A DNA stretch of 60,074 nucleotides from positions 1 to 60,074 of the forward strand of contig JAGRFY010000009.1 in assembly GCA_020445765.1 (NCBI GenBank), written 5' to 3'. The stretch comes from Rhodocyclaceae bacterium (GTDB taxonomy: Bacteria > Pseudomonadota > Gammaproteobacteria > Burkholderiales > Rhodocyclaceae). Shown piece after piece: positions 41,721-47,716 of this stretch (position 1 is the first letter of the stretch; every line of letters starts with the position of its first letter). The position numbers and the translations under genes are program-made. Under the pieces are notes generated by a model, which saw only the letters and a program-made list of their open reading frames with translations, ran no database searches and had not been told where the DNA came from.

Positions 41721-42914
41721 ATGATCCTCGACAAGCTGTTCCAGCTGATGGCCGAAAAGAATGCATCGGACATCTTCATCTCGGCCGGCGCACCGATTCA
41801 CATCAAGATCGAGGGCAACGCCGTTCCGGTGAACCAGCAGGTCATGGACCCGTCCATGATCCAGCGCATGGTGTACGAAATGATGGCGGCGGAGCAGATC
41901 GCGCAGTTCGAGCGCGACAAGGAGCTGAACCTGTCGTTCGGCCGCCGCGATCTGGGCAACTTCCGGGTCAACGTCTTCTACCAGCGCAACACCATCGGCG
42001 TCGTCGTGCGCTTCATCCAGGGCGACATCCCGAAGCTCGGCAACCTCGGCCTGCCCGAGGTGCTGTCGGAAATCGTGCTCGAGAAGCGCGGCCTGGTGCT
42101 GGTGGTCGGCGCCACCGGCTCCGGCAAGTCGACGACGATGGCGGCGATGCTCGACCATCGCAACGAGAACCGCACCGGTCACATCCTGACCGTCGAGGAC
42201 CCGATCGAGTACCTGTTCAAGCACAAGCGCTCGGTGGTCAACCAGCGCGAGATCGGCCTCGACACCAAGGGCTGGCACGAGGCCCTGAAGAACGCGATGC
42301 GGCAGGCACCGGACTGCATCCTGATCGGCGAGATCCGCGATCGCGAGACCATGCAGGCGGCGCTGGCCTACGCCCAGACCGGCCACCTGTGCCTGGCCAC
42401 CCTGCACGCCAACAACGCCTACCATGCGTTGAACCGCATCGTGAACTTCTTCCCGCTGGAAAACCGGCCACTGCTCTACCTCGACCTCGCGGTCGCGCTG
42501 AAGGCGGTGATCTCCCAGCGGCTGGTGCGCAAGACCGACGGCAAGCGCATCCCGGCGGTCGAGATCCTGATGAACACCCGCCACGTCGCCGAGCTGGTCG
42601 AGCGTGGCGATCTGTCGGAAATCAAGGAAGCGATGGAGCAATCCCTGGCGCCGGGCTCGCAGACCTTCGAGCAGGACCTCTACCGGCTCTACAAGGAAAG
42701 CACGATCTCGCTCGAGGAAGCCCTGTCCCACGCCGATTCGCCGACCAACCTGTCGTGGCTGATCAACAACTCCGAATTCGGCGCCGGCAAGCCGTCGAAG
42801 CAAATCGACGAGGCCCGTCCGCCGGTGATCGAACTCGACAGCGCCGACGGCGACGGCGAAGCCTCGTTCAAGGAATTCACGCTGCACATCGACAGCAACG
42901 CGAGCTACGACTGA
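41721..42914 (+). CDS. pilU: Type IV pilus retraction ATPase PilU
   Basis: Secretion-ATPase superfamily motor that helps disassemble type IV pili. 397 residues. Walker A GATGSGKS, Asp box TVEDPIEY, Walker B ILIGEIRDRETM and His box TGHLCLATLHANN are intact. Length and C-terminal tail match PilU better than PilT. No pilT or other pilus gene is in the window. Follows dapD by 24 bp on the same strand and borders the accessory island. Confidence 0.91.
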   Translation: MILDKLFQLMAEKNASDIFISAGAPIHIKIEGNAVPVNQQVMDPSMIQRMVYEMMAAEQIAQFERDKELNLSFGRRDLGNFRVNVFYQRNTIGVVVRFIQGDIPKLGNLGLPEVLSEIVLEKRGLVLVVGATGSGKSTTMAAMLDHRNENRTGHILTVEDPIEYLFKHKRSVVNQREIGLDTKGWHEALKNAMRQAPDCILIGEIRDRETMQAALAYAQTGHLCLATLHANNAYHALNRIVNFFPLENRPLLYLDLAVALKAVISQRLVRKTDGKRIPAVEILMNTRHVAELVERGDLSEIKEAMEQSLAPGSQTFEQDLYRLYKESTISLEEALSHADSPTNLSWLINNSEFGAGKPSKQIDEARPPVIELDSADGDGEASFKEFTLHIDSNASYD

Positions 42915-43173: not shown

Positions 43174-43458
43174 AAACCCCTCATTGGCCGCGCTTCAGGC
43201 TGGCTGGATGATTGCGCGCTTCGTTGCTTCTAAGCGGTCGTTCGCGAACTCACACAATCGGCCATGACCCGCCGCTCGGAAACCGGAGAGAGCTGTCACT
43301 GGCGGGGCAGCTCAACTTCGGAAGCTGTCGGTCCACCAGCGGAAGCGACTCGGCCTGAACAGCCCTCCTGGCGCAGACAGTTGAGCGCCAGCGGCGCGGC
43401 GAACAGCAGCCGGATGGCCATCAAGTAAGATCCGCTACAACAAGACCGCATTATGATG

Positions 43459-43503
43459 GGGGTGCACTACTTCGCGACTTGACCAAGTTCATTCTTGCAC
43501 CCC
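43459..43503. repeat. Perfect 8-bp inverted repeat at the island edge
   Basis: GGGGTGCA (43459-43466) and TGCACCCC (43496-43503) with a 29-nt spacer. Located where the sequence becomes AT-rich, 75 bp beyond the 3' end of the phosphoribosyltransferase gene. Could be a terminator stem or a cassette boundary. Confidence 0.4.
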
Positions 43504-43577
43504 GATCTGTAGCACTTCAAATTTCGTCGCATGGAACTTGCAAAAATATTGCGTCAGGCTCCGAAACGCAATACAAA

Positions 43578-44798
43578 TTAGTTACCATCGGACTCATCTG
43601 AACGAATTTCCAACCAGCCAATGTAGTCAAGGTGCCTATAGTAGTCATCATAATCCATGCCGTAGCCAAACAGCCAGTAGTCGTCGATACCCTTCCGCGC
43701 CATCTCGTCACGCGACAGCTGAAGATCAAATCCGATAAAATCGGCCCTGCCTACCTCGCTATATTTTCTTAGAAGCGCAGCAGACTTTACCGTCCCATAT
43801 CCGCGCTCCTGTACATATTTGGTCAGCATCTCGAGAGTTCTCCCGGAGTCAACCAAGTCATCAACGATCAGCGCAAGACTCCTATTTCCAGAAGGGCCGG
43901 AAATGTTTCCGTAGTCTATAGAGAACTCCTTGGCTTGTCGCTGGGCATGCGTTGCTGTTGCTTTAATGAAAAAGACACCGCAGGATATGTTGTTCCGCTC
44001 AAGTTCGCCAACCAAGGCATCACATACTTTTCTCGCCCCATTCAGAACACAGATAACGGTCAAGCTCTTTGCGTTTTCTTGCTCTAGCCAATCGATTATC
44101 TCAGCCGACATCCGCTTGATGCAGCTCTCAATATCGGACTGCGTCAAAATCTCCGGGGACTGTGCAACACGCGCACGCCGCCGGGCGTCTGCCAGAGGCT
44201 TGAGCATCACCTTCTTCGAGAAATCGTGCAGCCGCTCGCCAAGAATAACTAGAAATACAATTGCAAGCAAATAGGCGACGCCCTTGCCACTAGCCAAATC
44301 AAAACTTGCCCTAAAAAGCACAAAAACATAACCAGCGCAAATAGCCAGATAGACGAACTGATAGACACCAGTAACCATTTCGGATGATGATGACAAGTAT
44401 TTTTCTAGCGCCTCCTTGAAGCTCGACCGAGTCGCTCGTCCGCGCTTGCCGTCCTCTATTTCTGTAGTTAGTCCGATCTTAAAGCCTCTCAGGCGCACAG
44501 CCTCCAATCTTGACGCCCTATTGACAGCGATCATTAACATTCTTTCATAGTATCGATCAAGTACAAACACAACAGATATATAGAAGGCTAACAGTCCGAG
44601 CGCAACCAGGACAAGTTCCTCTAAGTGCCCATTCGTTGGATCAAGTTTTAATACTCCAGCTGCTGCGACCAAGAAGATAGAAAATGCAGAAGCAGCGAGA
44701 ATTCTAAGCTTCAATAGATACCCATCAAACCTAGCAATTGTATGCCTCGCTTCCTTCCATTCTGAAACCAAGATATCGTTCATCACTCTTATGCCCAT
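43578..44798 (-). CDS. Four-helix membrane protein fused to a hypoxanthine-type phosphoribosyltransferase
   Basis: 406 residues. Two pairs of hydrophobic helices (about 33-50, 62-80; 144-162, 172-188) are joined by a charged loop of about 60 residues. The C-terminal domain (about 220-396) is a type I phosphoribosyltransferase: pyrophosphate loop CVLNGARKV (250-258), PRPP loop VDDLVDSGRTL (312-322) and the HPRT-type FGYGMDYDDYYRHLDYIG. So an HPRT/XPRT-like enzyme tethered to the membrane. Base composition is far lower in GC than the chromosome, which suggests recent transfer. Catalysis looks possible. The role is unknown: purine salvage, or a nucleotide-acting conflict effector. ATG 44783 is a possible later start. 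Confidence 0.72.
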   Translation of the reverse strand: MGIRVMNDILVSEWKEARHTIARFDGYLLKLRILAASAFSIFLVAAAGVLKLDPTNGHLEELVLVALGLLAFYISVVFVLDRYYERMLMIAVNRASRLEAVRLRGFKIGLTTEIEDGKRGRATRSSFKEALEKYLSSSSEMVTGVYQFVYLAICAGYVFVLFRASFDLASGKGVAYLLAIVFLVILGERLHDFSKKVMLKPLADARRRARVAQSPEILTQSDIESCIKRMSAEIIDWLEQENAKSLTVICVLNGARKVCDALVGELERNNISCGVFFIKATATHAQRQAKEFSIDYGNISGPSGNRSLALIVDDLVDSGRTLEMLTKYVQERGYGTVKSAALLRKYSEVGRADFIGFDLQLSRDEMARKGIDDYWLFGYGMDYDDYYRHLDYIGWLEIRSDESDGN

Positions 44799-44957
44799 TG
44801 TTTATTGGCCCGAACGCATGTCCATATACGGCTTGCTGATCGCGGTCGTGTGCTTACTCGTGGGGCGCGTTTTGAAACCAAGAATTCTCAAGACGCGAAC
44901 CTATGTTAGTTTAACCTGCCTGATGCCAATCAGATAGCCTTTTTGGCATAGCTACTT

Positions 44958-44977
44958 GCACCAAGAAGGTGCCTTTT
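44958..44977 (+). terminator. Terminator-like hairpin
   Basis: Stem GCACC / GGTGC with loop AAGAA and a following CTTTT on the plus strand. The stem is short and the T run is only four bases, so the call is weak. Confidence 0.25.
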
Positions 44978-45060
44978 GGATGGGCGAGAATGCAACGAGA
45001 GATTGCAATGCTCTTTGCCTGGGTCAGAGACGCGGACTTCGGCGCTTGCGAATGGCAATT

Positions 45061-45099
45061 TCGGCAGTGGTGACTGTTTTGGATCCAGCAGCCTACGGC
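45061..45099 (+). pseudogene. Tyrosine recombinase remnant, part before the IS
   Basis: In frame the bases encode SAVVTVLDPAAYG, which matches the segment just before the HxxR box of phage-type integrases (GLDPxxYGTHSMRR type). It runs directly into the IS left end and continues after the IS at 46490. No intact coding part is recognised further left. Confidence 0.5.
45090..45099. repeat. Target site duplication, left copy
   Basis: AGCCTACGGC immediately before the IS left end; an identical copy follows the right end at 46480-46489. Ten bases is a normal duplication length for the IS4 family. Confidence 0.9.
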
Positions 45100-45115
45100 C
45101 AATGCCATTAAGTTA
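45100..45115. repeat. IS left terminal inverted repeat
   Basis: CAATGCCATTAAGTTA, 15 of 16 bases complementary to the right end. Confidence 0.9.
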
Positions 45116-45284
45116 GCCGCATACGCTTTATACAACAATGACTTAGGGTATAATCCTTCGATCGCAATGTTGACTCTGAGAATGACCATGACATTGCAAA
45201 GCCCGTGCCATCTTCGCCTAACTCGGCGAGTTTCTTCACTCCGACGCCTTTGCCAAGCTGGCGCGCGTCTCGCCCACCGCCTTC

Positions 45285-46460
45285 GTGCGCGAACGTAAGC
45301 TTCCGCTGCCGCGACTGGTGGCCTTCCTGCTCAACGCGCCGCGCAGCGGCCTGCAGTCCGAACTCGATGCCTTCTTTGATCATGCCCTGGACACGGACGC
45401 CTCCAGGCCGCTGACCAAGAGCGCGCTGTGCCAGGCTCGCCGGCAACTGCAGCCGGCCGCACTGCGCGCGCTGCTGAGCCACAGCGCCGACGTGTTCACT
45501 GCGCACACGCAGGCGCAGCCTTGGCATGGCCGTCGGGTGCTGGCCGTCGATGGCACCACCTTGCGGGTGCCGAAGGTGCCCGAATGCGCGTCGTTCTTCG
45601 GTGGCATGCACATGGCGACGGGCGGGTTCCGGCCGCTGGCGAGGGCTTCGGGCTTGTTCGACGTTGCCCGCGGCGCCTTTGTCGATGCGCGGATCGGCCG
45701 ATATGACGAGGACGAGCGTTCGCTCGCACGCGAGCATCTGCCGCAAATGGGCGCCGGGGATCTGCTGCTGATGGACCGTGGCTATCCTGCCCGTGAGTTC
45801 TTTCATGCACTGATCCGCCGGGGCACCGACTTCTGTGCCCGCATCAGCGATGCGAGCTGGTCCGCGGTGGCGCGGTTCGCCGATGGCGACTTGGACGACG
45901 CCGTCGTCGATCTCGGCGAAGCCGGCGCGCCCTTGCCGCTTCGCCTGCTGCGTCTGGACCGGCCCGGCGGCGAGCCGCTGATCCTGGCGACGACCGTCCT
46001 CGATCGCGCAGTGATACGCCGAGACTTCGAGCAACTGTACCGAACCCGATGGTGCATAGAGGAAGGATTCAAGCTGATCAAGGCGCGCCTGCAGGTCGAG
46101 AACTGGAGCGGCTTGCTTCCGCACACCGTCGAACAGGATTTCTACGCCAATCTGCTGCGCGCCAACTGCGCCGCGGTGATCGCCTGCGAGGTTCGGCCGG
46201 AGGAGGCCTGCGTCGATCCCGAGCGCGGACTCGATCGGCGCGGATGGCGACAGCGGCTCAATCGCAGCCGGGTGATCAAGAGCCTGCGTCACTTCCTGCC
46301 ACGGATTTTGCTCGGCATCGCGCTCGATTCGGTGATCGAACGTCTGCTGGAGCGCCTGCGCGCGCCCGGCGCCATCGAGTGCACACGGCCCGATCGCCAT
46401 GCCGCTCGCCGCTCAGGTGTGCGCATCGCCGATTTCCACTGGGCGTACAAGGCGGCCTGA
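45285..46460 (+). CDS. IS4-family transposase, probably truncated at the N-terminus
   Basis: 391 residues from GTG 45285. DDE residues: Asp89 in AVDGTT, Asp164 in LLMDRGYP, and the IS4 signature Y252-(2)-R255-(3)-E259-(6)-K266. The same frame continues upstream as 21 family-like residues (LGEFLHSDAFAKLARVSPTA then F) with no normal start codon and meets an in-frame TAA at 45219-45221; upstream of that it reads HCKARAIFA. A GAA-to-TAA nonsense change in the original N-terminus would explain this. The catalytic core is complete, but DNA-binding function may be impaired. Confidence 0.85.
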   Translation: MRERKLPLPRLVAFLLNAPRSGLQSELDAFFDHALDTDASRPLTKSALCQARRQLQPAALRALLSHSADVFTAHTQAQPWHGRRVLAVDGTTLRVPKVPECASFFGGMHMATGGFRPLARASGLFDVARGAFVDARIGRYDEDERSLAREHLPQMGAGDLLLMDRGYPAREFFHALIRRGTDFCARISDASWSAVARFADGDLDDAVVDLGEAGAPLPLRLLRLDRPGGEPLILATTVLDRAVIRRDFEQLYRTRWCIEEGFKLIKARLQVENWSGLLPHTVEQDFYANLLRANCAAVIACEVRPEEACVDPERGLDRRGWRQRLNRSRVIKSLRHFLPRILLGIALDSVIERLLERLRAPGAIECTRPDRHAARRSGVRIADFHWAYKAA

Positions 46461-46463
46461 CCT

Positions 46464-46479
46464 TAAGTTAATGGCATTG
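46464..46479. repeat. IS right terminal inverted repeat
   Basis: TAAGTTAATGGCATTG, reverse complement of the left end except for one base. Confidence 0.9.
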
Positions 46480-46489
46480 AGCCTACGGC
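46480..46489. repeat. Target site duplication, right copy
   Basis: AGCCTACGGC, identical to 45090-45099. Confidence 0.9.
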
Positions 46490-47221: not shown

Positions 47222-47716
47222 TCATGGTGCGCGGGTGGCCAGGTACGCAGCGATTGCAGCCATATCGTCCACGGTCAATTTCTGAATCACCGGCTTCATC
47301 AACGCGGCAGCTTCGCCGGCGCGCGCGCCGCTCTGGATATCGTAGGGTTGCGGCACCACATAGCTCGGTGAGCGTCCGGCAATCGGCGGAATCGCTGCCG
47401 CACCCTTCAAGTCCGGGCCATGGCAAGCGGCACACGGGGTGGTCTTGCCGCCACCGCCATCGACAACCAGCACTTCGCCTTTCCTGACACTGCCCACCGG
47501 CGCGTAAGTGATGAAGAAGTCGCGGGTTTGGGTCAAGGTGTCGCCCGCCGTGCTGCCGGGCACGCGGCGGATGGTGCCGTCGTCGGATTCTAGTTTGAAG
47601 CCTGGCGGATTGACCGGATAGGCCCAAGTGGGCCCTTACTCGGCCGCGTGCACAGGGTTTGCGATCGCAAGCACCAACGCCCATGGCAGCAGATACCTGG
47701 ATGAACGAACGGACGA
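47222..47716 (-). pseudogene. Broken cytochrome c gene (one heme domain lost)
   Basis: The frame reads a signal-like LLPWALVLAIANPVHAAE, then TAA (47638-47636), then GPTWAYPVNPPGFKLESDDG, and on to CAACHG and a methionine ligand region ALMKPV, ending YLATRAP. In intact relatives the segment after TLTQTRDFF carries a first CxxCH domain of roughly 120 residues; here it jumps directly to ITYAPVGSVRKGE. So the gene has an in-frame stop after the signal peptide, no visible start codon, and an internal in-frame deletion. Remaining heme domain is intact but would not be exported. Confidence 0.7.

Follow-up and report, generated by a model that had tools for sequence, protein, structure and literature searches.

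What would a phosphoribosyltransferase (PRTase) fold of the HPRT type do at the end of a membrane module? This question is raised by a gene at positions 43578..44783 (minus strand) of a 60,074-nucleotide stretch of DNA from a Rhodocyclaceae bacterium (contig JAGRFY010000009.1), here called the window. Recognised as an open reading frame with Pfam and NCBIfam profile matches, the gene codes for a protein of 401 aa if the second ATG (44783) is taken as the start, as is done throughout; an upstream in-frame ATG at 44798 would give five extra residues. The protein consists of a four-helix membrane module, with helices within residues 28-181, joined to an HPRT fold at residues 213-391. This is the architecture that an earlier note on this DNA had described, and the alternative that it had named, a soluble protein without membrane helices, does not hold because the helices are clearly present in the hydropathy profile. 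The gene is also foreign in composition. Its G+C content is 0.48 and its GC3 0.51, compared to about 0.65 for the rest of the window, and it lies in a low-G+C segment (43400..45099) with values of 0.43-0.57 in 150-base windows. The low G+C extends through both halves of what is a single unbroken frame and, as counted by hand, only 19 of 60 bases are G or C at 44521-44580, so that the very different base composition pointed out earlier is confirmed.

The membrane module and its stand-alone relatives

The N-terminal membrane module covers residues 1-205 (44169..44783, minus strand), and its first part resembles two small stand-alone membrane proteins. By hydropathy, the four hydrophobic helices are at residues 28-46 (44646..44702), 57-75 (44559..44615), 143-161 (44301..44357) and 163-181 (44241..44297), all encoded on the minus strand. 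With segment ends placed by eye, the three sides assigned as cytosolic (N-terminal, middle, C-terminal) carry 5, 13 and 7 lysines plus arginines, and the two outer loops carry none and one. Based on this distribution, the HPRT domain and both ends of the membrane module should be on the cytosolic side.

Residues 1-205 match no Pfam family, and neither Pfam nor NCBIfam profiles assign the module to a transporter family. Its sole NCBIfam match, to an XrtX-associated protein (E 0.0021), has 17.8 bits and is far below the cut-off of 75. The earlier note had compared the paired helices to SLATT-domain proteins of conflict systems and proposed an HMM search. By eye, the N-terminal end of the protein does have the helix-TM-TM-helix layout of SLATT and 2TM effectors; unlike these, however, the protein has two more helices and an enzyme domain, and it gives no Pfam SLATT match. 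What the PADLOC profiles gave for residues 1-165 were two weak matches, one with RTasSLATT, an RT-associated SLATT profile (E 0.021), the other with a profile for a 2TM effector (E 0.023). Residues 1-122 gave the same two matches and a third weak one, to ZorD (E 0.05), while in a small control none of nine hydrophobicity-preserving shuffles of these residues had any PADLOC match.

Two stand-alone relatives of the module point in another direction. One, of 147 aa (L040:1468-1908), was found in a search with the N-module over 398 genomes with a per-genome E-value of 4.6e-4, and the other, of 150 aa (L123:1342-1791), in a search over 369 genomes with a two-row profile that already included L040 (E 7.6e-6). 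Both are the best matches from searches over about 400 genomes, and the E-values adjusted for that are approximately 0.18 for L040 and 0.003 for L123. In local alignments, the module scores 87 against L040 and 80 against L123, and neither score is reached in 500 shuffles made so as to preserve hydrophobicity; L040 aligned with L123 scores 107, which is likewise reached by 0 of 500 shuffles. The two proteins look three-helical by eye, with L123 giving two segments at the threshold used, and both match the PADLOC profile for Hydrolase-TM (PDLC03009; E 2.9e-4 for L040 and 5.9e-7 for L123). Proteins of this type thus occur without any enzyme domain, and the window protein has a fourth helix and an enzyme domain beyond what they cover. 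The window protein itself does not match PDLC03009. Any link between the module and Hydrolase-TM would, therefore, run in two steps, via L040 and L123, and with these comparisons the earlier interpretation of the protein is partly supported and that of the module shifts from SLATT towards a possible relationship with Hydrolase-TM.

L040 and L123 represent a patchy family of membrane proteins of about 150 aa without a Pfam model. With a three-row profile, G042 itself was the sole match in a set of 94 genomes around it, and in a set of 100 genomes around G251 the sole matches were G251 and G042. The plasmid searches gave no match for either protein, and the phage search gave none for L123. Among the neighbours, which were named by eye, there is no obvious defence operon beside L040 or L123; a gene judged by eye to be of the CcdB type is present in the L040 neighbourhood. 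Three further candidate relatives were judged to be chance matches, L041 because the match lies opposite another open reading frame, and L124 and L125 as larger multi-span proteins.

The HPRT domain and its altered loop II

The HPRT-type domain (residues 213-391; 43611..44147, minus strand) was identified by profile, structure database and alignment. It matches TIGR01203 with an E-value of 1e-21 and 77 bits, which is under the equivalog cut-off of 150 for this model, and Pfam PF00156 (Pribosyltran) with an E-value of 9.6e-12, which is over the cut-off; its top PDB match is a hypoxanthine-guanine PRTase (E 1.6e-12). PADLOC matches to PsyrT (E 2.2e-4; residues 287-339, 53 residues) and DpdF (E 4.5e-4; residues 303-337, 35 residues) cover the PRPP motif only. 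The protein shares a PRTase fold with the anti-phage systems DprA-PRTase and PsyrTA; unlike the proteins of these systems, which are not known to have a membrane module, it has one.

Residues 196-401 were aligned with HPRT-like proteins from 88 loci, 80 of them viral and eight others, which gave 87 open reading frames and 72 distinct proteins. The 80 viral loci were kept from at least 109 confirmed relatives among at least 600 stretches returned by a pattern scan of viral contigs. The window protein has the residue that is commonest among the 72 listed proteins at G249, D308, D309, D312, G314, T316, K340, W370, G373-D377 and R383, with the motifs GYG.DY and DD..D.G, unlike loop II, being partly fixed by the search patterns that fetched the compared sequences. 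G249, D308/D309, D312, G314, T316, K340, D377 and R383, which are structural or contact positions of HPRTs, are shared with the great majority of the compared proteins, and the positions known to contact PRPP, Mg and the purine are kept.

The earlier statement that the loops are intact applies to part of the active site. The PRPP-binding loop, VDDLVDSGRTL (residues 307-317; 43833..43865, minus strand), is intact in sequence and alignment, and loop I, VLNGA (residues 246-250; 44034..44048, minus strand), is present in the alignment; Arg251 in loop I is unusual in that 52 of the 72 proteins among the matches listed have Phe. By contrast, the flexible catalytic loop, loop II (residues 274-286; 43926..43964, minus strand), which in HPRTs closes over the active site, is not canonical, and the Ser/Arg-Tyr of other HPRTs is replaced by Ala-Thr. 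All 72 compared proteins among the matches listed have the tyrosine, whereas the window protein has Thr278; the preceding Ala277 is Ser in 62, Arg in six and Thr in four of these same proteins. Because there is no tyrosine anywhere in residues 274-286, a shift of the alignment by one column does not rescue it. Thus, the protein is like soluble HPRTs (TIGR01203) in fold and contact residues, and unlike them in being membrane-bound and in having lost the loop II tyrosine. Because the contact residues are kept and this tyrosine is lost, ligand binding by the domain appears better supported than turnover, and a working enzyme could tolerate the loss.

The closest of the 72 listed HPRT-like proteins (L042) is 29.6% identical, and the HPRT domain is, therefore, distant from every soluble relative seen. 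In the same genome, a separate frame codes for a soluble HPRT-like protein of 191 aa (G000:C160:5396-5932), and compared to this protein the window protein has, by hand count, seven extra residues between the PRPP loop and GYGMDY. With this soluble gene elsewhere in the genome, salvage is probably covered. A further HPRT-like protein, from a proteobacterial MAG (L126 5417-6043, minus strand), starts with a putative signal peptide, judged by eye, and is a possible exported HPRT.

Searches with the full protein in 398, 300 and 190 genomes (E 1e-10, 1e-12 and 1e-13, respectively) found the fusion only in the window's own genome; the HPRT part alone was matched in four other genomes in the 398-genome search and in one in the 190-genome search. 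N-module searches in 61 and 398 genomes and a two-row N-profile in 369 genomes also gave no second fusion, with the genome sets of the fusion searches overlapping. No fusion was found in exact-pattern scans of genome contigs and viral contigs, including one viral scan with L040 as query, all of which demand near-exact stretches that distant copies could escape. One genome-contig pattern, which matches the window itself, gave three loci: one codes for an unrelated protein, and the other two code for HPRT-like proteins that lack the membrane module. Using tblastn in plasmids and phages, the matches covered the HPRT part at most and there was no fusion, and blastn in E. coli gave no fusion. On the matched strand, 54 of the 80 kept viral relatives show one hydrophobic segment each, and 26 show none. 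An apparent second fusion, L005 (query 132-387), resolved into two neighbouring genes with an intervening stop. These searches support that the fusion is very rare, and we do not claim that it is unique. Because a single copy is known, neither conservation nor a recurrent defence neighbourhood can be demonstrated.

The 3' end of pilU

The gene stands alone, as the earlier note had it. On one side lies pilU (41721..42914, plus strand; identified by eye from its sequence), on the other an element of the IS4 family (45100..46479, plus strand), and the gene is the only recognisable cargo between the two. The element has a transposase frame at 45285-46460 and 16-bp inverted repeats with 94% complementarity, and it is flanked by the two copies of a 10-bp direct repeat (45090-45099 and 46480-46489). 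The empty site contains only unremarkable frames, and the insertion interrupts no recognisable gene. The IS transposase is the sole other recognisable gene, and there is no recognisable HAD hydrolase partner gene in the cargo; similarly, neither ThsA nor ThsB is among the open reading frames beside the membrane-HPRT gene. Downstream of the IS, a frame at 47222-47563 (minus strand) codes for a cytochrome-c domain (Pfam E 4.6e-7).

Synteny breaks at the 3' end of pilU. In the same-genus genomes G670, G671, G672 and G674, homology to the window ends about 5 bases or less from the pilU stop codon, and in G673, also of this genus, it ends earlier, at 42773. It resumes at an acetyltransferase gene at about 48.2 kb, on the same contig in G670 and on other contigs in G671, G672 and G674. 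A pilU search of 61 genomes gave matches in 37 at E 1e-100, and 30 loci (29 relatives and this genome) were examined over a downstream stretch of 0.8-1.5 kb. In 25 of the 30, pilU is followed by dapE; the loci without dapE are those of this genome, G670 and G671 as well as L150 and L151. Only this genome (lowest value 0.47) and G671 (0.38) have 300-base windows with less than 50% G+C downstream of pilU, and in the other 28 loci the lowest value is at least 0.53. The pilU-dapE order is broken with different contents each time in this genome (42914-48206 of the window), G670 and G671, as in a local hotspot of rearrangement.

At this spot, G670 has pyruvate-dehydrogenase-like genes, named by eye. 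In G671, which belongs to the same genus, the cargo comprises a transposase, an acetyltransferase-like protein (L033 2038-2580), a 316-aa protein (L033 2635-3585) without a Pfam or PADLOC match at E 0.1, and, next to these, a complete pair of genes of the anti-phage system Thoeris. ThsA, of the TM-macro type, has 290 aa (L033, that is G671:C73, 3677-4549; E 8.7e-122 in PADLOC and 3.2e-60 for Pfam ThsA_Macro), and ThsB, the TIR protein, has 189 aa (L033 4611-5180; PADLOC E 3.5e-76, Pfam ThsB_TIR E 2.7e-26). The PADLOC matches span nearly the whole of both profiles, and we therefore conclude that a Thoeris pair is present at the same spot in a species of the same genus. The shared defence spot rests on one other genome, a single case without a statistic. 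Together with the Hydrolase-TM-matching relatives of the module, this pair strengthens the link to conflict systems that had been drawn from the sequence.

A candidate membrane effector

Based on these data, we think it quite possible, if somewhat short of probable, that the membrane-HPRT gene was acquired horizontally and encodes a membrane effector that works as a one-gene system, most likely against phages. An effector is favoured over a salvage enzyme by the combination of a lone foreign gene, an effector-type module, a nucleotide-binding domain whose catalytic loop is altered, a second gene for salvage in the same cell, and the Thoeris genes at the corresponding place in a same-genus species. 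We suggest, more speculatively and with distinctly less confidence, that the HPRT fold now serves as the sensor in a one-gene membrane-disrupting immune effector, in which a ligand in the altered, formerly salvage site directly gates the Hydrolase-TM/SLATT-like module. In the effector reading as such, the HPRT domain would be mainly a sensor and not an enzyme, and the sensed ligand would be PRPP, (p)ppGpp or a purine nucleotide, the level of which shifts on infection. The ligand would change the oligomeric state of the HPRT domain, as in some soluble HPRTs, and this change would be passed on to the helices so that the membrane module clusters or opens. The resulting membrane damage would bring the infected cell to a halt, in a way similar to that proposed for TM-macro ThsA with its macro domain. 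The oligomeric state of HPRT is reported to differ between PRPP and (p)ppGpp, with the switch made by way of loop II (PMC6783271), and oligomerisation induced by nucleotides, with perturbation of the membrane, has been proposed for TM-macro ThsA (PMC11204291).

Two known systems share parts of this design. TM-macro ThsA also has membrane helices and a C-terminal cytosolic nucleotide-binding domain, in addition to occupying, with ThsB, the same genomic spot in the same genus. However, HPRT replaces the macro domain in the window protein, there is no TIR gene nearby, and the membrane parts are no more alike than expected by chance (score 40, reached by 56 of 500 shuffles), which does not support kinship between them. 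In Hydrolase-TM, a membrane protein is paired with a small-molecule enzyme fold, and it is the profile of this system that the stand-alone relatives match; by contrast, in the window protein the fold is that of an HPRT and is joined to the membrane part in cis, there is no HAD hydrolase, and the profile is not matched. A system of a HAD-like hydrolase and a transmembrane protein is reported to inhibit T7 (PMC9122126), and, judging from its name, PDLC03009 probably models the transmembrane protein of that system. The protein would combine, as known effectors do, a membrane part with a nucleotide-binding enzyme fold, here that of an HPRT; a membrane effector with an HPRT domain was not encountered among open-licence PubMed Central papers.

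Other explanations must be weighed against an effector gated by a ligand. The protein could be an active membrane-bound PRTase in defence that consumes PRPP or converts a nucleobase on infection and thereby starves the phage, with the module as anchor or sensor. The kept PRPP, Mg and purine contacts fit such an enzyme, and PRTases are known in defence, for example DprA-PRTase, which is reported to protect against T7 and lambda (PMC9122126); we consider it rather improbable, given the loss of a loop II tyrosine that all compared proteins among the matches listed have and the existence of related membrane proteins without an enzyme domain. A salvage function, in which a membrane-anchored enzyme couples purine-base uptake to phosphoribosylation or is simply a tethered HPRT, would be compatible with the conserved contact residues, and a layout of this kind would make vectorial uptake possible. 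Yet a gene for a soluble HPRT-like protein is already present in the host, the N-module matches no transporter family, loop II is altered, and the gene is rare, foreign in composition, alone and outside any purine operon; we hold this function to be slightly less probable still. On group translocation, there was nothing pertinent among open-licence PubMed Central papers.

The low G+C, the adjoining IS and the occurrence in a single genome would equally suit accessory cargo of a mobile element without a role in defence, be it in a (p)ppGpp response, as a toxin-like selfish stabiliser or with no current role. The intact reading frame and the Thoeris genes found at this position in a species of the same genus count against such cargo, to which we assign about the same low probability as to the active defence PRTase. 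Finally, the gene might be a chimera that an assembly error or a frameshift made out of two genes without relation to each other, which would fit with the lack of a known second copy and with L005, where the apparent fusion was in fact a pair of neighbouring genes; this is highly improbable in view of one uninterrupted frame with low G+C through both halves. We infer function and mechanism, and the candidate effector that results from weighing these explanations is a single gene and so could easily be tested.

If the proposed effector and its gating are correct, then purine-salvage ligands, that is PRPP, (p)ppGpp and purine nucleotides, would join the small molecules by which membrane effectors of bacteria are controlled. 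The protein would also give a lead on how the membrane partner is controlled in Hydrolase-TM systems, on whose defence mechanism we found no paper among open-licence PubMed Central papers. In this genus, the 3' end of pilU would then be a place to seek more defence genes.
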